Positions 9,306 through 35,675 of a stretch of 64,000 nt of DNA are shown here, in pieces (the first letter of the stretch is position 1; every line of letters starts with the position of its first letter). The DNA is taken from assembly GCA_019744775.1 (NCBI GenBank), contig JAIETZ010000002.1:124001-188000 (forward strand). The letters run 5' to 3'. Source of the DNA: Candidatus Obscuribacterales bacterium. Lineage in GTDB: Bacteria > Cyanobacteriota > Vampirovibrionia > Obscuribacterales > Obscuribacteraceae. Made by a program: the position numbers and the translations under genes. Below the pieces are notes generated by a model. It was not told the DNA's origin. It made no database searches and saw only the letters and a list, made by a program, of their open reading frames with translations.

Positions 9306-12300
9306 ACAAAGATAGAACTGACAAGAACAAGATCAGGGTGTCATTCATTCTGAACCCGATTGAGTTCGAGAAAGAAGAAAAGTATTTCGATTATGGCAAA
9401 ACCATTGAGCAAATAATTCTTGAGTTCTGTTCTGTATTGCCTGTAGATCTTTTGGTCAATCTAAATGGCAATCCAGTGCCTCGTGAATATTTCAAACTCA
9501 TTAAACCTAAAGCCGGAAGTTGTTTGAGCTTCCGAGCAATGCCAGCCGGCGGAAAGCGAACGCTGAACATCATAGGTGGCGTTGTCGGATTAGTCGGCGG
9601 TGGCTTGGGAATGTTAGGAGCCTTGAGCGGTATAGGGCGCTTGATCTTTGGCGGCATTGCTAGCTTAGGCTTCGGCATGTTGAAGCGCGGATTAACACCA
9701 CCACCGAGACAATTCACGCCTGCAGTTTCCTCTGTGCCAGGTTTTTCGGCTCCTGCCTATATTGCTCCTGAGCCATTTTCACCAGGCATCATAAGTCAAC
9801 AGAATGCCACTCGTGATCCTTTGCGTCCATCAATTAGTGGATCTCAAAATCAATCTAACCCTTATGGCGTCATTCCAAAAGTGCTTGGACTCTATAAGAT
9901 GTTCCCGCCTTTGGCAGCGCAGCCTTATACGGAACTTGTTGGTGATGATCAATATGTCCGAATGCTGCTATGTCTCGGTTATGGTCCTGTGAACGTAACC
10001 GATATCAAAATTGGTGAAAACCTTATTGTTGCTAATCCAGTCTATGACACTATTCAGACAGTGACGGGCTCATCGTTTGAAGGCATTGAATATCAACTCA
10101 TTCAAGGTTATCCAGATGATCCTGAGATAACGTTATTCCCGAATGACGTAAATGAAGAATCATTAGATCTTCCGCTCACATTTGCTGGCGGCAGCCAAAC
10201 AAGAACCGCTGCCCCTGATGCTGACCAATTGAGCGTAGACATTACATTTCCAAATGGCTTGACTCAGTTCTTCACTGATGGCTCAAGATCATCTAGAACT
10301 GTTAACGTTACTGTTGAATATCGAGCAACTGGTAGTTCAGACCCTTGGACTTTGGTTAATACGATTTCGGTAACGGATAATTCAACCGCCACAGTTAGGC
10401 GCGGTTTGACATGGGATGTTGCTCAAGGCGATTATGACGTTCGACTTACAAGAACAACTGCAGACAATAGTGACGTTAACATCATTGACCTGGTTAGCTG
10501 GTCAGTACTGCGATCCATTCGCAATGTCCAACCTTTTGGACCAATAAAAGATCAACAAGGAAATGTAAAAGGCATTAGCTTGCTCGCTATGCGGATTAAG
10601 GGTACTGAGCAGTTACAAGGTACTCCAAATCAAATAAGTTGCTTAGTCGAGTCAATACTTCCTGTATTCGATGGCGTAGATTGGAACGAAGAAGCTACAA
10701 GCAATCCAGCGTGGATTTACTCCTATCTCTTTACCGGACCGATTGGTAAAACTAGATTTTCCACCGATAAGATGCACACAGATTCTCTTATGGATTGGGC
10801 AGAAAATTGTGATGATGATGGCAGAGAATGTAACTTCATCCTTGATTCACCCACCAACAGATTTGAATTAGCCAAGCAGGTGGCTGCAGTCGGTCGAGCT
10901 GGTTTCATGCAAATTGACGGCAAGATCGGGGTGGTTCAAGATTTGGCTCAAGCTGTTCCAGGGTATCTGTTCACCAGCCGGAATATGTGGGGTTTTTCAA
11001 GAAGCTGGGTCAGAATTGTCCAACCTCATGCTTTGCGTGTCTTCTTCATTAATCCAGATGCAAACTGGCAGCAAGATGAAGCGGTCGTTTATGACGACGG
11101 ATATACATCAGCCAATGCCACTATCATTGAAGAATTACAGCTTCCATTCGTTACCAATTATGAGCAGGCATGGAAGGCAGGACGCTATCACTTAGCCGCG
11201 TTACGCCTTCGTCCTTTTACCTATGAGTTCTATACCGACATAGAAAACATTCAATTAAGGCGCGGCGATCTCGTTCGCGTTAATCACGATACTTTTGAAT
11301 GGGGGCGTGGCAATGGGCGTATCAAGGCAGTCACCTTAGACAATGACGGTAATGCCATTTCTGTGACGTTGGATTCACCGATCACGATGCTTGCCGATGA
11401 AGCTTATGCAGTACGAATTTCAAAGGCAGATCTAACTCACGTTGTATCTAATGTGGTGTTTGCGCTTGGTGAGCAGAGTACCCTTATATTTACAACGCCA
11501 ATTCCCTTTGATGATCCTTTGCCTGTAGTTGGAGATCTGTTTGCTTTTGGTTTGGTTGGATTGGAGTCAATTCCTCTCGTTATCAAAGATATTGCCGCTG
11601 GTCCTAACTTTTCTGCCAAAATCACAGGCGTTGATTATGCACCTGAAATCCAAGATGCTCCGACCGGTGCGATTCCACCATTTACCAGTAATCAAACCCG
11701 CCAAGGTGACTTGCCCCAGCAAGTGATCCCAAAGCCGATTTTAATCAACATCAGATCTGATGAAACGGTATTAGTTAGACAAATTGATGGCACAGATGCC
11801 ACAAGAATTGCCATTACTTTGGCGCATGTCGATAACTCCATTGGAACGATCCAGGCAAGATTTAGAGCTTCGGATTCGGCAGCCTGGACGACTTTGCCGC
11901 CGGTAAATACTCCAACCAATGAAATCTCAATCATTGGCGTAGAAGATGGCGGCACCTACGATATCCAAATAAGGAATATCAGCAGATCCAATAAGTCATC
12001 CGAATGGCTGCAAATAAACGATTACTTCGTCCTCGGCAAGCTGAACCCACCGCCTGACGTACCGACACTCACGTTATCCAATGGCAAGGCTAGATGGTCT
12101 TATCCGGACGCAATCAAACCACCGGATTTCAAAGGCTTTTACCTGTCATACAACCTCGGCAATAGCACAAACTACGCGACATCTATTCGCGCCCATGACG
12201 GTATTTTGACCGTTAATGAATTCGATATTTCCAACCTGCCGATTGGACCGAAAACAATAATGGTCGTTGCAGTTGATACAGCAGGCAATGTCAGCACTAC

Positions 12301-18221: not shown

Positions 18222-18739
18222 ACGAACATCTCACCAGCTCAGAAGTAATGATCGCGTGGATCAAATCACCTGGGATAGAAGGTGTTGGTCCCAACGTCAA
18301 AGATGGCAGATGTTACCCGTATGTCTGTCCGGCTGGAAAGAAAACAGTAGGTCACGGTCACGTCATTCGTATTGGTGAAGACTTTAGCCATGGGCTAACA
18401 TTTGCTGAAGCTGATGCGCTGCTAAGAAAAGATCTTAAGGAACGCTTTGAGCCGTTGATTCACAAGTTCGTCAAAGTACCCTTGAATCAACATCAATTTG
18501 ATGCGCTTGTGTCCTTTGTGTTTAACATCGGGCCTGGCGATCCACGCCGTGGAATTCAGGGATTACTTACTAGCACCTTGCTTAGAAAGCTCAATGTGCG
18601 CGATTACAAAGGCGCTGCAGTTGAATTTCCGAAGTGGAATAAAGGCAGAGTCAACGGCGTGTTAACTGTTCTCGGTGGTTTAGTAAAACGCCGTAAGTGG
18701 GAACAACTTCGTTTTCAAAAGCCGGTACAAGAGAAATGA
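18218..18739 (+). CDS. Endolysin, GH24 lysozyme
   Basis: This 173-residue muramidase cleaves the glycan of peptidoglycan at lysis. It has the T4-lysozyme-type catalytic residues, with Glu21 in GIEG, then Cys37 and Thr43 (YVCPAGKKTVGHGHV) in the Glu...Asp/Cys-5-Thr arrangement. The catalytic Asp is a Cys, as in P21-like endolysins. The gap between Glu21 and Cys37 is 15 residues, longer than the usual 8. The C-terminal lobe has 'NQHQFDALVSFVFNIG' and 'LRKLNVRDYKGAAVEFPKWNK', standard for the family. There is no signal peptide, so it needs a holin for release. It overlaps its neighbours by 4 nt on both sides. Confidence 0.9.
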   Translation: MNEHLTSSEVMIAWIKSPGIEGVGPNVKDGRCYPYVCPAGKKTVGHGHVIRIGEDFSHGLTFAEADALLRKDLKERFEPLIHKFVKVPLNQHQFDALVSFVFNIGPGDPRRGIQGLLTSTLLRKLNVRDYKGAAVEFPKWNKGRVNGVLTVLGGLVKRRKWEQLRFQKPVQEK

Positions 18740-19560
18740 AGACCGCTTTGTTGCTTGCCGGATGTGCAGCGCGTGGAGTTATCCAAGCCGGAATGATCCA
18801 AGCGGTATTAGACTCCGGCATTGAATATGACATGCTTTACGGTTCATCTGCCGGCGCTCTGAATGGTGCCTTGCTTCACGCTGGTCAGCTTCAAGACATG
18901 AAGGACTTGTGGCTGAACATCCGGAACAAAGATGTTTACTCTCAGGCTCCCTGGAATGCTGTAAGAGCAAATAAGGGTTGTCTGTATGATTCAACTCCGT
19001 TACTCAAGTTGATTCAACAGAAGATCAATTTCGCGAAGCTCGTAAGCAATCCTAAGCCGTTTATTTTGCACGTAACTGAGATGTATCCTGAATGGAAATC
19101 AATTCACGTAAATGCCACTGAGCCTATAGATGCGCTGGCAAAATTACTATGGGCATCAGCATCACCGCCGGTATTGATGCCGCCTGTTCAGATAGGCACA
19201 GGCACCTTTACGGATGGCGGCTTGACTAACAATTACAGCGTTGTCGATGCAGTAAATGCAGGCGCTGACAGGTTGATCGTTCTGGCTCCAATGGTGCCGG
19301 AGCCAAAACCAATTCGGAATATCATCGACTCAATTGAATTCACGATTTCAATTCAGCTATGGAATCAATTGGAACGTGAATTGAAATTCGTGAATATCTT
19401 GAATAACGTGCCAGGTTACAGAAAGATCGAAGTCATCCTAATTACTGCCGACAAGCCGACGGGTATCGGTATCCTTGATTTTGATATCAAAGATCGGCAG
19501 AAGTGGATTGATTATGGTTATGAGTTGGCGAAGAATAAGCTGCAGGGCTTATGGTCATAA
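18736..19560 (+). CDS. Patatin-like phospholipase in the lysis cassette
   Basis: This 274-residue protein has the full patatin layout: glycine-rich oxyanion loop (LLLAGCAARGVIQAG), nucleophile elbow G36-S-S38-A-G40 (YGSSAGALNG) and catalytic Asp160 in FTDGGLTNN. The oxyanion loop lacks the usual GGG. Patatins hydrolyse acyl chains from phospholipids. It starts at ATG 18736 within the lysozyme stop (ATGA overlap), so both are likely made together. A phospholipase coupled to an endolysin suggests membrane disruption at lysis, in place of spanins, which I do not see; this role is inferred. Confidence 0.82.
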   Translation: MKTALLLAGCAARGVIQAGMIQAVLDSGIEYDMLYGSSAGALNGALLHAGQLQDMKDLWLNIRNKDVYSQAPWNAVRANKGCLYDSTPLLKLIQQKINFAKLVSNPKPFILHVTEMYPEWKSIHVNATEPIDALAKLLWASASPPVLMPPVQIGTGTFTDGGLTNNYSVVDAVNAGADRLIVLAPMVPEPKPIRNIIDSIEFTISIQLWNQLERELKFVNILNNVPGYRKIEVILITADKPTGIGILDFDIKDRQKWIDYGYELAKNKLQGLWS

Positions 19561-28474: not shown

Positions 28475-28746
28475 AAACTGCTTAGCTCCTTGCACAATCG
28501 AGAGAACAACTCCGTTATTTGTTTGACTAGTAAGACAACCTTGCATCTTTTCTGAATCCTTTCCTCTGTCAATTCTTGATACGCTTGCTCTAACGTGTTC
28601 AGTCTTTCTTCCGCTCTGCGTAATGCCTCGCCTGTATCAATGACTCTTTGGTAATGGGCTAGTAATCTGTCATCGATAGTTTGTTCGTGGGGTTGTGTGC
28701 CCTCCCAGATGCCTCCGTATTCGTTTGTGTCGTCTTGGTACGTCAT
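28471..28746 (-). CDS. Helical phage protein
   Basis: This 91-residue protein is acidic at the N-terminus and then a long coiled-coil-like helix (ALRRAEERLNTLEQAYQELTEERIQ). It is 2 nt from the upstream gene and overlaps the next by 4 nt. Unassigned. Confidence 0.56.
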   Translation of the reverse strand: MTYQDDTNEYGGIWEGTQPHEQTIDDRLLAHYQRVIDTGEALRRAEERLNTLEQAYQELTEERIQKRCKVVLLVKQITELFSRLCKELSSL

Positions 28747-28748
28747 TG

Positions 28749-29519
28749 TTATGCGCCTACCAGATAGTCTTTTGTGACAAGACCTAATTCCTTGGAGCCT
28801 CTAACAAATGGACTCCACCAATAAAGCCCACTTTTCCTGGCTTTAAAATGACCGCGAACAAGATGTAAACGCCGACTATCCCTGTTACTGCATGACGAAC
28901 CATTTGACCGATCATTTTGAACATCTAGTCTTAATCGCAATAACTTATGGGAAACAAGCGGAAGCTTTCCGCGTCGCTGCCTAGCCTTATTAAGTCTCTC
29001 GCTAGGAATAACATCAATTGGTACTAACAGATTCTTGCAATTCAAGAGACACAAAACCAAAGCAGATTTGGAAATATCAAGGAAAGTTCGTCTATTAATA
29101 AACTCATCATCTAGAGAATGTGCATGTCGCATTAGCGATGTATTGAATATCTGTGACTCGCAATCAAACTCACATATAAGGGGGGAACAAACAATCTCTC
29201 CAGCCATTTCAAGAAAATGAATTGTTTGCCAAGCAGTACCCTGATCGTTCAGGGCATTAAGCAAATATCCTTGCTTATCGCGTTTGGCACAACCACCAGG
29301 AAATTCAATCCAGAGTTGAGCAAATGGCATTCTTGCATAAGAAATAAACTCGTTATTCTTTCCAATACTCCAATCATTTAATAGAGTGGAAAGTAGTTCG
29401 GTTACAGGGCCGGTTTCAATTACAAACTTCACTGCTTGTATAAGACTGGATTTCAAATCTGTACACCCAACCGTTACTTCTATGTCTGATGCGCGATCAA
29501 TTATTCGATGTATGAACAT
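28749..29519 (-). CDS. Unknown phage protein with basic C-terminal motif
   Basis: This 256-residue protein has a mixed N-terminal domain (FIHRIIDRASDIEV, then MPFAQLWIEFPGG), a hydrophobic 'SALVLCLLNCKNLL' segment, and a basic C-terminus ending RRLHLVRGHFKARKSGLYWWSPFVRGSKELGLV. That 'H.vRGH.r..k.g..wW.p..RG' ending is a recurrent motif in phage proteins of unknown role. ATG 29519 follows GAGGAAAG; the longer frame from 29576 has no such site. Confidence 0.62.
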   Translation of the reverse strand: MFIHRIIDRASDIEVTVGCTDLKSSLIQAVKFVIETGPVTELLSTLLNDWSIGKNNEFISYARMPFAQLWIEFPGGCAKRDKQGYLLNALNDQGTAWQTIHFLEMAGEIVCSPLICEFDCESQIFNTSLMRHAHSLDDEFINRRTFLDISKSALVLCLLNCKNLLVPIDVIPSERLNKARQRRGKLPLVSHKLLRLRLDVQNDRSNGSSCSNRDSRRLHLVRGHFKARKSGLYWWSPFVRGSKELGLVTKDYLVGA

Positions 29520-29529
29520 TACGCTTTCC

Positions 29530-29982
29530 TCACAGTAAAAATGGAATGACGATCTGGGCGACCATACTGGTGGCACTTAGATAAGGGATGAACATGATGC
29601 AGACGTATCTGCCTTTTCTGAATACCTTGTAGACAACCGGGTGACGATCTTTGAACTTGCCTTTGAATTTCACCGTTTCCTTTCCGGGCAATAGATCAAC
29701 GGTTCCCATAAACTCAACAGGACCACGATAGATTTCTTGAATGTCTGCCCCGGGTGCCAGTTTCTTCAGTGGGGGGAGTGGATCACTATCAATAACGCCT
29801 GGCTGTAACTGCAGTTTCGGATGAATAAGTGAATAGGTATCGTTCAATCTATCCTGCACTATTGGCTGAACCGCTTGCCCAATAGATAGCGGAGCAACCA
29901 TAGAAGTATTCGCCTGTACCGGCAACGCCAATGCAAATAAGCTAGTAACTGAAATGAATACTTTTCTGACTGTCAGCTTCAT
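29530..29982 (-). CDS. Exported phage protein of unknown function
   Basis: This 150-residue protein starts with a signal peptide (MKLTVRKVFIS, hydrophobic VTSLFALALP, VQA before NTS) and ends with a second hydrophobic segment (ICMFIPYLSATSMVAQIVIPFLL-like), so it may be membrane-held at its C-terminus. Its first 41 nt overlap the primase 3' end. GGGGAGAG precedes ATG 29982. It could be an envelope-acting early factor such as superinfection exclusion; that is a guess. Confidence 0.6.
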   Translation of the reverse strand: MKLTVRKVFISVTSLFALALPVQANTSMVAPLSIGQAVQPIVQDRLNDTYSLIHPKLQLQPGVIDSDPLPPLKKLAPGADIQEIYRGPVEFMGTVDLLPGKETVKFKGKFKDRHPVVYKVFRKGRYVCIMFIPYLSATSMVAQIVIPFLL

Positions 29983-32143
29983 GTTCACTCTCCCCATCTG
30001 TGACTAATCGGATACCTTCATAAACAAAGCCAGATTCCTTCTTCACCTTATTAACGCCTCTGCGTTTCAGCTCTAAGCCAAGTCTGGTGTTACTCCATGG
30101 CTTGTGTCCATTACGTTCGCACCAGGTCTGATAGCCTCGATAAAACTCACTTGCCTTAATTTGAGAGAATTCGTTCTGTTCAATTCTCTGACTAATAAAT
30201 TCGCCTAGTGTGTCGCTTTCTTTTTCATATTCCTTCGTGGCGTCTGTAACACGCTTCGGCGGTGCTAGTCCTTCAGCCATCCAAGTGTGATAACCAATCA
30301 ATGCCCACTGAAATATTCCTTCGCGTTCTTCTAAGAGCTTCTCAACCAGGTGCTGATCGCGCTCTTGTTCAGGAATAGTGACTTCAAACGGTATTAGCAA
30401 AATTCTTCGCCAAATACCAAAATCAGATCCACTGATTCGCGGCTTGTGGTTACCATGCAGCCACAACTTACCGACCGGCTTAAACTCAAACGGTTCTTTA
30501 TAAAGCAGTCTTGCTGGTATCATTTCGCCACCGGTAATGTCCTTTATCAAGGCTTCATTCAACTTGGCGGTATCCGCAATTTCACTAGCTCGGATGAATC
30601 GCCTACCGACAATCGATGACAAGCTATCCAGTTGCGTATCATTCTTGTGATCCATAATTGCGTTAGCGCGGATTGTCTTTGAATAGTCTCCGAAGATTTC
30701 TTGCAAGACAGTAAGAAATACGCTCTTTCCATTCATGCCACCGCCATAACAGAAGAACAATTTCTGTTCGGTAATGTGACCGGTTAGTGTATATCCGATA
30801 GCTCTTTGCAGGAAGCATGTCATCTCATCATCACCGCCCATGATCTGATCAAGAAATGCCAGCCACTTCGGGCACTTAGCACCACTCTTAAATGAGATAT
30901 TCGCTTTCCTGGTTATTAGTTCACTTCTGTCATGCTCTTTCAGCTCAAAAGTATCCAGATTTACAATGCCATTTATGCAATTGAATAGAATTGGATTTTT
31001 GTCAAAATCTTCCATTTCAACTCTTACCTTCTTATCTGAACGTGCCAGACTAATCATGTTTTCTATTGCTGATCTGCTCTGAGTTTTCTTCGCCCACTTC
31101 ATATAGCTTTCGCGCTCTGACTCACCAATCGTTTCTGATTCTTTCCATAAAGCATCAGTTACTTTTTTGGCTCTCTCTTGTACGCCTAGATGATTTCCAG
31201 ATTTCCAGAAGCCTTGATCCCAGGCATACCAGCCCAAGTTCTCATTGAATTTCAGGTCATCACCCATGTATTCAATGAACTTCTTAGCGCTTGCCAGGTC
31301 GGTGCCTGTGATCTCTTTATCCTCACGGATTCGGACAACATTCTTTTCTTCCACCTTTGGGGCTTCTTTCATGGCTGGAGCATTCTTTGATAGCTCCAGC
31401 AGCTCCATCAATCTGTGTCCGGCACCTAACCAATCAGATACATCACCTTTTTCAGGAACATCCAACTCAAGTATCTTTATTGACTTCGCTTTGCCGAATA
31501 GGTTATTGGCGATGTGCTGAACTCTATTCCTGCCAGCGCGGTCATTGTCCGGCAGAAGAATAACGTCACAGCCTGTCAGAACTTCTGTATAGCTATCAGA
31601 CCAAGTTCCGGCACCAGATGAATTAGTCGTTGCCACCAATCCGCGATTAATAAGATTGTCTGCGTCCTTTTCACCTTCACAGACATAAACAGTCTGACCG
31701 AGTTCCTTGGCTTTCAAAACAGCGCGGAAGTTATATAGAACGCGCCGGACATTCTTTAGGCTCCATGACCCATCTGCAGCCTGCTGCTTGAATGTCTTTG
31801 GATTTTCGGGATCATCTGTCTTATATCGATGGACTTGAAAGAGCAATTCGCCATTTTCATCACGGTAATCATAGGAACGCTCATACGTTTCTATGACATC
31901 TTTCTTCTTGCTTTTCTTTTCTGGCTTAACGGAGGCAATCGGCTTGATGAATCCGAGTCGTTTCAACTCATCCATGACCGCAATTTGGCTGCAGCCAGTT
32001 TTGCAATTCCAGAGCAACTTGCCTTCAGCATCGGTAATACTCAGGCTGTTATGAGTATCATTATGGGCGGGACAGCGAGTGAGCCAGCCGTGACCGGCTC
32101 TTTTCGCGTTCCCTAATTGCTTGGCTATCTGCTCGGCATTCAT
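29942..32143 (-). CDS. Primase-helicase (P4/D5 type)
   Basis: This 733-residue replication protein combines an N-terminal zinc finger (RCPAHNDTHNSLSI ... LWNCKTGC), a TOPRIM domain (VYVCEGEKDADNLI; VILLPDNDRAGR) and a C-terminal superfamily 3 / D5-type helicase with Walker A GGGMNGKS, the SEIAD Walker-B-like segment, and the LWLHGNHKPRI sensor followed by the arginine finger region FGIWRR. It primes and unwinds phage DNA. It is the largest early gene and is accompanied by resolvase and SpoVG-like genes, making a replication module. Confidence 0.9.
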   Translation of the reverse strand: MNAEQIAKQLGNAKRAGHGWLTRCPAHNDTHNSLSITDAEGKLLWNCKTGCSQIAVMDELKRLGFIKPIASVKPEKKSKKKDVIETYERSYDYRDENGELLFQVHRYKTDDPENPKTFKQQAADGSWSLKNVRRVLYNFRAVLKAKELGQTVYVCEGEKDADNLINRGLVATTNSSGAGTWSDSYTEVLTGCDVILLPDNDRAGRNRVQHIANNLFGKAKSIKILELDVPEKGDVSDWLGAGHRLMELLELSKNAPAMKEAPKVEEKNVVRIREDKEITGTDLASAKKFIEYMGDDLKFNENLGWYAWDQGFWKSGNHLGVQERAKKVTDALWKESETIGESERESYMKWAKKTQSRSAIENMISLARSDKKVRVEMEDFDKNPILFNCINGIVNLDTFELKEHDRSELITRKANISFKSGAKCPKWLAFLDQIMGGDDEMTCFLQRAIGYTLTGHITEQKLFFCYGGGMNGKSVFLTVLQEIFGDYSKTIRANAIMDHKNDTQLDSLSSIVGRRFIRASEIADTAKLNEALIKDITGGEMIPARLLYKEPFEFKPVGKLWLHGNHKPRISGSDFGIWRRILLIPFEVTIPEQERDQHLVEKLLEEREGIFQWALIGYHTWMAEGLAPPKRVTDATKEYEKESDTLGEFISQRIEQNEFSQIKASEFYRGYQTWCERNGHKPWSNTRLGLELKRRGVNKVKKESGFVYEGIRLVTDGESEHEADSQKSIHFSY

Positions 32144-32149
32144 GGCTGG

Positions 32150-32614
32150 TTAAAATACGCTCCGACCACCAAAGCCACCATTACCGGCAAAGTTATTGCC
32201 TTGTGGTTGCATCGGTTGCTGCCCAAAACCCTGATTTTGGTTCTGATTTGCAAAGCCCCCAGGATTCTGCTGCCCATTGCCAAAACCCTGAGCTTGTCCG
32301 GCAAAGCCTTGATTCTGTTGTGCCGGTTGTTGCTGTTGCATCTGTCCACCATTAAGGCGCTGATATTCAGCAACTACAGCTTGCCGGACTGCTGCCTGCA
32401 ATTGTTCTGAGAGCTTGACCGTATTCATGCGTCCGGTTTGCCCGTCCTGGCGCTGCCACTGAATTTGCGGCATGGCGACAAACATATTGCCATTCTTATT
32501 GATCAACCGGCAGCCAACCACCGTCAGATCAAATCCTGGTTGGATCTGGATCACTAAGTTACATTTCGCCATTGCATAGCGATCTGGTTGCATATCTTGA
32601 ACTAAAATACTCAC
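32150..32614 (-). CDS. SpoVG-like protein with Q/N/G-rich tail
   Basis: This 154-residue protein has an N-terminal core (VVGCRLINKNGNMFVAMPQ ... LQAAVRQAVVAEYQRL) that matches the SpoVG pattern ('..v..crli...gg.FvamP' and 'i..aVl.eY.rl'). The C-terminal 60 residues are almost only Gln, Asn, Gly, Phe and Pro, a low-complexity tail like those of single-strand-binding proteins, though the acidic SSB tip is missing (it ends GGRSVF). SpoVG proteins bind nucleic acids. Beside the primase-helicase and RuvC genes it is a good candidate for the phage single-strand-binding function. Coupled to the resolvase gene by 4 nt. Confidence 0.68.
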   Translation of the reverse strand: MSILVQDMQPDRYAMAKCNLVIQIQPGFDLTVVGCRLINKNGNMFVAMPQIQWQRQDGQTGRMNTVKLSEQLQAAVRQAVVAEYQRLNGGQMQQQQPAQQNQGFAGQAQGFGNGQQNPGGFANQNQNQGFGQQPMQPQGNNFAGNGGFGGRSVF

Positions 32615-33126
32615 CTTTCTATCCTCCTAACCTTGTATAAACGTTTGCCGTATTCAGCTATTAACAGAGCATCTGCCCTGCCATCACTAGGTGTTCGGCT
32701 GTGATCTCTTACTAAATTTGCTTTCGGGAATAATTTCTGTGCAAGCCAAATTGAGCCTTCCTTAGTCTTTGGCTTGCACAATGCTGCCTGCCAGGTCGTC
32801 GGATGAACTGTCCTGTACCGAATACCAGCTTGCTGCAACACTGAAAGAACATTGCCATAATCGGCTAAGAAAGTACGTAAACCAGCCGTCTGCACAGCGC
32901 GCATAATAAACAGCTCTTCGACATAAAGCTCATAGTCATAGACATCCTTACCTGCAAGCCATTCACCAAGTGCCTCACTCAACTTTCTAGAATCAATAGT
33001 TATGATTCCATCCCTGTCATCCGGATCTATCAGAGGCATGTCTATAAAGAATGGAAGCTCCGGATCGTTAGTATCTATCAGGGCAACTGCTCCCTTTTGC
33101 CCTGGATCAATTCCGCAAAAAATCAC
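32611..33126 (-). CDS. RuvC-like Holliday junction resolvase
   Basis: This 171-residue protein has the RNase H-fold acidic residues of RuvC: Asp7 in CGIDPGQKG, Glu in YVEELF, and the C-terminal SDGRADALLIAEYG with the last catalytic Asp. Thus it cuts branched DNA made in replication or recombination before packaging. It sits in the replication module and overlaps both neighbours by 4 nt. Confidence 0.83.
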   Translation of the reverse strand: MIFCGIDPGQKGAVALIDTNDPELPFFIDMPLIDPDDRDGIITIDSRKLSEALGEWLAGKDVYDYELYVEELFIMRAVQTAGLRTFLADYGNVLSVLQQAGIRYRTVHPTTWQAALCKPKTKEGSIWLAQKLFPKANLVRDHSRTPSDGRADALLIAEYGKRLYKVRRIER

Positions 33127-33764
33127 GCTGTCTTCCTCGCCTTCTGAATGCGGCTCAAGGCATGTAGATATTTTGCTTCCGTCAATCCGTATACATTTTG
33201 ATTTGCTTCGTCATATATCACCTGGAAATCAGCGGTAAGCATGCGTCTAACAGCGTCTTTAGCTGTATCAAAATCCATCCCTACATCACTCATGGCTGTG
33301 TTAATCAGTAGTGAAACGCCTTCAGTACCCATCTCATCACTGCCGGTTATCGCTTGTCCATCAAATATATTGATGGCATCTGCCATTGCTCTATCGGCTT
33401 CTGTTGGCTCAGGCATTTCTTGCTGAGCTTCCATAATTTGGTCAACATCTTCCGGCGGATTCTCTGGAACCTCACCGAATAAGTCTTCGCATTCACGGAC
33501 GAAATCTGGATCTAATTGCTCATTCAAGCCAAGATCTTCATTTACTTGCTTTAGCTCAGCTTGCTTTTCTTCGTTACGGCTCCGCATAATTTCGCGAATC
33601 TTGGAACCGCCTTCACTTGCTGGCAAGAGTGATATTGAACTGATCCATTTAGTAAGTTCTTCCGAATTCAGGACTGATTTGCCACCAAATGACATTTCAA
33701 ATCCTTTCTGTGATCCAATTTCTCGGACGATTAGCTTTCCCTCTGTCTGAATTTCTATCGGCAT
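33123..33764 (-). CDS. Acidic protein of replication module, unknown
   Basis: This 213-residue, strongly acidic protein (FGEVPENPPEDVDQIMEAQQEMPEPTEADRAM) has a helical N-terminal part and a C-terminal helical domain (DFDTAKDAVRRMLTADFQVIYDEANQNVYGLTEAKYLHALSRI). Nothing identifies a family. Its position, first large gene after the promoter and coupled to the resolvase, suggests a replication or recombination accessory role. Confidence 0.58.
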   Translation of the reverse strand: MPIEIQTEGKLIVREIGSQKGFEMSFGGKSVLNSEELTKWISSISLLPASEGGSKIREIMRSRNEEKQAELKQVNEDLGLNEQLDPDFVRECEDLFGEVPENPPEDVDQIMEAQQEMPEPTEADRAMADAINIFDGQAITGSDEMGTEGVSLLINTAMSDVGMDFDTAKDAVRRMLTADFQVIYDEANQNVYGLTEAKYLHALSRIQKARKTA

Positions 33765-34083: not shown

Positions 34084-34205
34084 GACACCATAAGTGGTGT
34101 CATTTCTTATGCGGTTATTATCCTGCACTATCGTTCAGGATTCAAGCACTAAAAGCAGCTAATTTTCGGGAATCAGTTACTGATCGAAATACGAGTGGTG
34201 TCACT
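34083..34205 (-). promoter_or_regulatory. Early leftward promoter with TGGTGTCA operators
   Basis: On the - strand, TTGAAT (34145-34140), a 17-nt spacer and GATAAT (34122-34117) make a good sigma70 promoter. Just downstream of the start is a palindrome TGACACCA-taag-TGGTGTCA (34083-34102). A second, single AGTGGTGTCA copy lies upstream at 34194-34203. Operators on both sides of the promoter fit repression by looping or by a dimeric repressor; the XRE-type protein at 34925-35155 is a candidate. Confidence 0.72.
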
Positions 34206-34247: not shown

Positions 34248-34490
34248 TTAAGGAATGGTATCAACTCTCTTAGAGAAACTTTTCGGGCAAAAAGTTATTG
34301 GCTTGACACATGCACACCTAATTGGAAATACGTACCACGTACTTCCGTTTTCTTCACGGTGAGAAAACCGGTTCAATTTCATGGCATTTCTGTTCAGTTT
34401 TCCCACCAGCGCATGAGCATGTTTTGCTGTTTCTTGGCTGGGATGAACCGATTTTATTTCATACAGATTTTCGGTTGGTTCGTGCAACAC
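34248..34490 (-). CDS. Doubtful small ORF in the control region
   Basis: This 80-codon GTG-started ORF (ENLYEIKSVHPSQETAKHAHALVGKLNRNAMK) has a protein-like composition in its first two thirds but no ribosome binding site and a Cys/Pro-rich, unlikely end. The opposite strand also has an open frame. I list it because it fills a 600-nt gap; it may be only a remnant. Confidence 0.3.
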   Translation of the reverse strand: MLHEPTENLYEIKSVHPSQETAKHAHALVGKLNRNAMKLNRFSHREENGSTWYVFPIRCACVKPITFCPKSFSKRVDTIP

Positions 34491-34580: not shown

Positions 34581-34909
34581 CTGAACAGTTTGCTGCATAG
34601 GCTGCACAGTTTCTGAACAGTTTGTCTAAAACTGTTCAGCCTAGTCTATGCCTCGCTGGTGGCGGGTTTCCCTACATAACCTGAACAGTCTGCATACTTT
34701 TTTCTGGAAAAAAATAAAAAGAGAAAAAGAAGAAAAAGAAGAATAGAAAAAGAGAAGAAATAGAGTAAAAAGCGTAAAAGAATAGGGAAAAACTGTGCAA
34801 GACTGTTCAGGAATGGGATATGACAAGTCGAATTTATAGCACTGGTGTGCATTACGGCGACTGCACACTTGGCAGCCAAAACTATTCAGGACTGTGCAGA
34901 ACTGTGCAG
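34581..34909. repeat. Array of CTGAACAGTTT-type repeats around a polypurine tract
   Basis: At least ten copies of CTG(A/C)ACAGTTT or its reverse complement occur at 34581, 34602, 34613, 34629, 34681, 34791, 34802, 34879, 34891 and 34901 (positions of copy starts). Neighbouring copies are often 10-11 bp apart, one helical turn. Between the two groups, 34700-34790 is almost pure A/G on the + strand and very AT-rich. Repeats at helical spacing beside an easily melted tract are the hallmark of an iteron-type replication origin, but an array of repressor sites is equally possible. No gene is supported in 34491-34924. Confidence 0.72.
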
Positions 34910-35592: not shown

Positions 35593-35675
35593 TGCCGGAG
35601 GTCGGAGTCGAACCGACACGCCCTTTCAGGCGGATGATTTTGAGTCAACTGCGTCTGCCATTTCGCCACTCCGGC
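35593..35675 (-). tRNA. tRNA-Leu (anticodon CAA)
   Basis: The - strand folds as a class II tRNA: acceptor GCCGGAG/CTCCGGC with discriminator A, T arm GTCGG-TTCGACT-CCGAC, variable arm CGCC-TGAAAG-GGCG and anticodon loop CTCAAAA with CAA at 34-36. One anticodon-stem pair is T-T (28-42). CCA is not encoded. The 3' end faces the prophage, the usual orientation when a phage uses the tRNA 3' half as attachment site. Confidence 0.95.

Follow-up and report, generated by a model that had tools for sequence, protein, structure and literature searches.

An integrated prophage extends into the window, i.e., the 64-kb stretch of Candidatus Obscuribacterales DNA that was analysed. The prophage is bounded by two identical 52-bp copies of the tRNA-Leu(caa) 3' part (attL and attR), whose positions (C2:116250 and 35593 of the window) yield a circle of 43,343 bp upon excision. 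Late genes, including lambda-J-type tail genes and an endolysin gene, are located on the plus strand, and the early and replication genes on the minus strand. The element is a temperate siphovirus-like phage of 43.3 kb. We found neither a close relative of this phage nor a phage with the same repeats, and a search of IMG/VR for relatives of its XRE, 213-aa, SpoVG-like, and 106-aa proteins returned none. A patatin-like ORF (18697-19560), recognized by eye and lacking a PHROG match, is situated in the late operon immediately 3' of the endolysin gene and is possibly a cargo (moron) gene.

The replication cluster consists of genes for the 213-aa protein, a RuvC-like resolvase, the SpoVG-like protein, and a primase-helicase. 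Between this cluster and the gene of a small XRE-type protein, 2.4 kb upstream of the primase gene, lies an array of short repeats surrounding an A/G-rich tract (Table 1).

Table 1. Features of the prophage, its replication region, and the repeat array. Positions refer to the window unless prefixed with L070 or C2.
Feature	Position	Strand	Remarks
attL	L070:12250-12301 (C2:116250)		identical to attR
Integrase gene	L070:12376-13368		left prophage end
Terminase genes	L070:14582-16661		near integrase, prophage end opposite the array
Primase-helicase, 733 aa	29942..32143	-	Zn ribbon/Toprim (Toprim below the Pfam cut-off), D5_N, DUF5906 (SF3), C-terminal Pox_D5 winged helix; proposed initiator
SpoVG-like protein, 154 aa	32150..32614	-	Q/G/N-rich tail; replication module; Pfam SpoVG E 4e-4, under curated cut-off
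RuvC-like Holliday junction resolvase	32611..33126	-	phrog_1770 E 1e-25
213-aa protein	33123..33764	-	same cluster; no Pfam or PHROG match
Isolated extra copy CTGTTCAGTTT	34390..34400	+	1 mismatch; array membership uncertain
Outer left iteron cluster	34581-34591, 34602-34612, 34613-34623	+	exact CTGMACAGTTT
Degenerate copy CTGCATAGG in outer left cluster	34593	+	
Opposite-orientation iteron CTGAACAGTTT	34629..34639	-	exact
Inner left iteron pair, bordering the tract	34681 (CTGAACAGTCT), 34690 (CTGCATACTTT); span 34681..34700	+	9 bp apart; 1 and 2 mismatches
A/G-rich tract, candidate DNA unwinding element	34701..34789 (89 bp)		75% A+T, 87% purine
Inner right iteron pair, bordering the tract	34790-34800, 34800-34810	-	10 bp apart; 1 mismatch each
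Weak iteron CTGCACACTTG	34861..34871	+	2 mismatches
Outer right iteron cluster	34879, 34889, 34899; span 34879..34909	-	10-bp spacing; 1-2 mismatches
XRE/Cro-type HTH protein, 76 aa	34928..35155	-	rival ligand of the repeats
attR	35593..35644		52-bp copy of tRNA-Leu(caa) 3' part

Scanning both strands of positions 34581-34909 with CTGNACAGTTT yields four exact matches; allowing one mismatch raises the count to nine, and allowing two raises it to 13. These 13 represent 12 distinct CTG(A/C)ACAGTTT-like sites in both orientations, since the match at 34678 on the minus strand overlaps that at 34681 on the plus strand, CTGNNCAG being nearly palindromic. At one mismatch or fewer, the array holds nine of the 11 matches of the window, against a chance expectation of 4.8 for the window as a whole; and of five exact copies of CTGMACAGTTT in the 4.1-Mb genome, four are localized within the array. 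In an unbiased search (350-bp windows, up to one mismatch) the commonest 10-mer of the prophage was CTGAACAGTT, with eight copies, and the top 10-mer never exceeded three copies in six Markov shuffles of the prophage. The array is non-random, and its repeats are nearly unique to this locus within the genome. Among 50 genomes of the host family, the same array pattern was observed in the window only.

The distances between neighboring sites, taken cluster by cluster from left to right, are 21 and 11, 9, 10, and 10 and 10 bp. The cluster of repeats in two orientations that the initial annotation had described, with many copies at a spacing of 10-11 bp, is real and comprises 12 sites mostly 9-11 bp apart. 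Sites left of the tract are mostly on the plus strand and those right of it mostly on the minus strand, so that the clusters face inward; the exceptions are the minus-strand site at 34629 and the weak plus-strand site at 34861. The purine-rich tract of about 90 bp noticed earlier inside the array was also recovered: its best 90 bp contain 81 purines, the maximum elsewhere in the prophage being 66, and, judged by nearest-neighbor energy, every other 90-bp segment of the 43.3-kb prophage is more stable. The array thus has a low-stability, A+T-rich region between iterons, as expected of an iteron origin with a DNA unwinding element.

A rival explanation—that the CTGNNCAG cores are operators bound by the 76-aa XRE protein or a different phage repressor, which would control the leftward replication cluster—is suggested by the dyad symmetry of CTGNNCAG, by the XRE gene abutting the array, and by the start of the replication genes to the left of it. 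Nevertheless, we consider it improbable for several reasons. Firstly, 12 sites at helical spacing around an 89-bp melting tract far exceed the usual Cro/CI operator. Secondly, the repeats also bear a directional TTT extension, and no sigma-70-like promoter was found within the array in a promoter scan. Finally, unrelated phages and plasmids show this layout too, close to the primase relatives that they encode (see below). In a combined arrangement, the iterons of an origin would double as autoregulatory or copy-control sites for the initiator and the XRE protein. The position of the array between the XRE gene and the replication cluster would suit such a role, and in the crenarchaeal plasmid pRN1 the replication gene shares a transcript with a small transcriptional repressor that reportedly controls copy number (PMC4234260); binding of the XRE protein to the array is conjectural, however, and this dual function is rather doubtful. 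An origin at the array neither needs nor excludes a role of the XRE protein.

The proximity of attR raises the question of integrase or excisionase arm sites or another recombination site, all the more so as phage P4 carries 12-bp arm repeats near attP and exact tandem CTGNACAGTTT repeats are found beside integrases in two other contigs, L029 and L030. At 690-1010 bp, the array is farther from the att core than the P4 arm sites, which lie within about 460 bp of theirs; its copy number is too high for arm sites, and these would have no need of a melting tract. Hence, a recombination function seems very unlikely. The two contigs mentioned, the sole IMG/VR matches to the exact two-repeat pattern, were considered as possible relatives and rejected, as their repeats lie beside integrases and they lack a primase of this type. 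The tandem CTGNACAGTTT repeats in question (L029:4450 and L030:3579) adjoin the integrase genes and are probably recombination arm sites.

Iteron-like arrays act as centromeres in plasmids, and a partition centromere or a packaging (pac/cos) site might look similar. Either assignment is hardly credible here, as no partition gene was identified and the terminase genes of the integrated prophage are near the integrase, at the end opposite the array. If a plasmid prophage is meant, the suggestion in the initial annotation that the phage might replicate as a plasmid finds no support. Such elements are unintegrated and carry partition genes, whereas this one is integrated, has an integrase gene and perfect att repeats, and is devoid of identified partition genes.

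The primase-helicase noted earlier in the prophage proved to be a Toprim-SF3 protein homologous to the alpha protein of P4 (hhalign probability 99.2%, E 2e-19, residues 192-717, the C-terminal region included). Both proteins have Toprim-type, D5_N, DUF5906, and Pox_D5 domains in the same order. The AlphaFold model of the primase (pLDDT 68, so that only local features were used) contains a helix-strand-helix-helix-strand-strand succession at about residues 645-713, i.e., a winged-helix-like C-terminus. Pfam, hhalign, and AlphaFold thus together point to the combination of Toprim primase, SF3 helicase, and C-terminal winged helix that characterizes an initiator of this type. Among solved structures, sequence comparison picks out a DNA primase (7ola/7om0) and the asfarvirus primase C962R as relatives; the top fold matches are asfarvirus PrimPol structures.

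A close parallel is provided by P4, whose alpha protein binds the ori repeats via its winged helix (PMC4234260). Two sites in the P4 record bear annotated type 1 repeats (GGTGAACAGT): ori (9310-9413), which precedes alpha by 2.3 kb, and crr, which closely follows alpha. Both systems combine homologous Toprim-SF3-winged-helix initiators with close-set iterons of either orientation flanking an A+T-rich spacer of low stability, and in both the array lies at a similar distance (about 2.3 kb in P4) upstream of the initiator gene, beyond a gene for a small DNA-binding protein. The 12 sites of the window resemble type 1 repeats, with TGAACAGT common to the array and the P4 consensus. At the same time, P4 repeats start with GG and lack the TTT end. 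No site is a full match to the type 1 repeat GGTGAACA, and a P4 weight matrix run on the prophage does not show the array to be enriched, because the leading GG is missing. Further differences are the type 2 repeats of P4 ori, the satellite nature of P4 as opposed to the full phage of the window, and crr, which adjoins alpha in P4 and has no counterpart at the window primase: a second array, either crr-like or at the primase 3' end as in other relatives, is absent around 28600-30300.

A similar layout is known from the Streptococcus thermophilus phage Sfi21 (the PER element), reported to be a replication origin activated by infection (PMC6356513). It is annotated at the primase 3' end and comprises two plus and two minus GTTACT repeats, separated by a long A+T-rich spacer that consists partly of purine runs and ends in a GAGAGAGA run. 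The Sfi21 primase is likewise of the DUF5906/Pox_D5 type. The repeat sequence, the location right at the primase 3' end, and the split of the primase over two genes distinguish Sfi21 from the window. A further system is pRN1, in which an SF3 helicase with a C-terminal winged helix (orf904) is followed by an origin that lies behind the replication gene and is still functional when moved (PMC4234260), although this origin is a single stem-loop without iterons and the primase is of the archaeal type.

Loci encoding relatives of the primase were drawn from IMG/VR, GTDB genomes, phages, and plasmids and searched for two tandem copies of a repeat followed by two inverted copies. Excluding plasmid loci from the count, 21 such arrays were found in 69.8 kb near the stop codon of the primase relative (-250 to +500 bp), whereas the other 1270 kb of these loci contained 33, an approximately 12-fold difference in density; a Markov null gave three in 725 kb. 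This contrast is conservative, since several of the arrays counted as elsewhere just miss the near zone or follow an apparently separate helicase gene. As the loci are related to each other, we claim no exact probability for the enrichment. Of the non-redundant arrays, 7 of the 16 near primases contain the motif TGA(A/C), vs. 1 of the 25 elsewhere.

The repeats themselves differ between loci: CTGACGGGT in the Acidithiobacillus phage AcaML1, GTGACGGGT in genome G028, GGATGACAG and GGTGACGGG in the MAG contigs L031 and L032, respectively, GGTGAATAA in G049 (a genome of the same genus, with a DUF3987 primase), and TAACACAG in the plasmid pSR11, where the pairs immediately follow the primase stop codon; the plasmid pSINAC02 is a further example of primase-adjacent paired inverted repeats. 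AcaML1, pSR11, and pSINAC02 share with the window a P4-family primase (27-33% identity) and have an inverted iteron array just past the stop codon; they differ in repeat sequence and position and in having shorter arrays. These three arrays, found in this analysis, had no prior annotation. An unusually unstable spacer was observed in the window, G028, L031, L032, Sfi21, P4 ori, and phage Nutello; spacer instability is weak in AcaML1 and P4 crr and absent in G049. No array was found near the primase relatives L081, L082, L034 (downstream of the primase), and L103-L105, or in a Thermaerobacter plasmid.

The 11.2-kb plasmid pSR11 carries clean, unannotated inverted iteron pairs directly 3' of the primase stop (L113:2731-2860). 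In G049, a GGTGAATAAG inverted iteron array (L084:7202-7274) is situated behind the DUF3987-type primase, between integrase genes; this integrative element is a separate one, and its origin-like site is similar even though the helicase domain differs. The plasmid pGEOTH02 has seven AGTGAATGA-like repeats (L112:7153-7371) at a distance of 4.3 kb from its P4-family primase, possibly a second case of an origin array distant from the primase gene.

We propose, with a probability of roughly 80%, that the array is the replication origin of the phage, recognized by its own P4-alpha-type primase-helicase and melting at the A-rich tract. Comparison with P4, Sfi21, AcaML1, pSR11, and other relatives lends good support to the initial annotation of an origin that includes a melting region and uses the phage primase-helicase. 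The proposal builds on the repeats and how they are arranged, the low stability of the tract, the domain composition and P4-alpha homology of the primase, the att sites, and the recurrence of the layout near relatives and at known origins. Such an origin implies theta-type replication of the excised circle upon induction. We infer that excision would come first; the primase-helicase would then bind the TGAACAGT-type iterons via its C-terminal winged-helix domain, SF3 hexamers would assemble on the two inward-facing clusters and melt the tract between them, and the protein would prime theta-type replication, which the host polymerase would extend.

The cumulative GC skew of the circularized phage has its minimum at 34167, beside the array, but this counts for little because skew follows gene orientation. 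Between 33500 and 36000 there is no DnaA box with fewer than two mismatches to TTATCCACA, and hence the array does not fit the DnaA-dependent iteron-plasmid type. While in most array-bearing relatives the array lies directly downstream of the primase gene, here it lies upstream, with precedents in P4 ori and perhaps in pGEOTH02. None of the misfits to relatives contradicts an origin. Given the upstream position, the lack of crr and of the leading GG, the relatives devoid of arrays, and the absence of a phage with the same repeats, we limit the claim to a site that works like P4 ori.

Most likely, the array is a new example of the origin type known from P4 and Sfi21 and not a new type. It would be a precisely defined origin, amenable to testing, in a temperate phage of a seemingly little-studied host lineage. 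The wider pattern across P4-family primases may outweigh this single case in value. Tentatively, and with the odds slightly against it, we suggest that the P4-family primase-helicases of phages, satellites, and plasmids share a portable origin plan: a melting tract surrounded by tandem iterons that face inward and often have TGA(A/C) at their core. Such an origin would usually lie at the initiator gene's 3' end but could relocate. If so, this prophage would carry a relocated version of the plan in a little-studied bacterial lineage, and such arrays could predict origins in many uncharacterized elements, offering a rule for locating them in phages and plasmids that encode P4-family primases and lack an annotated origin.
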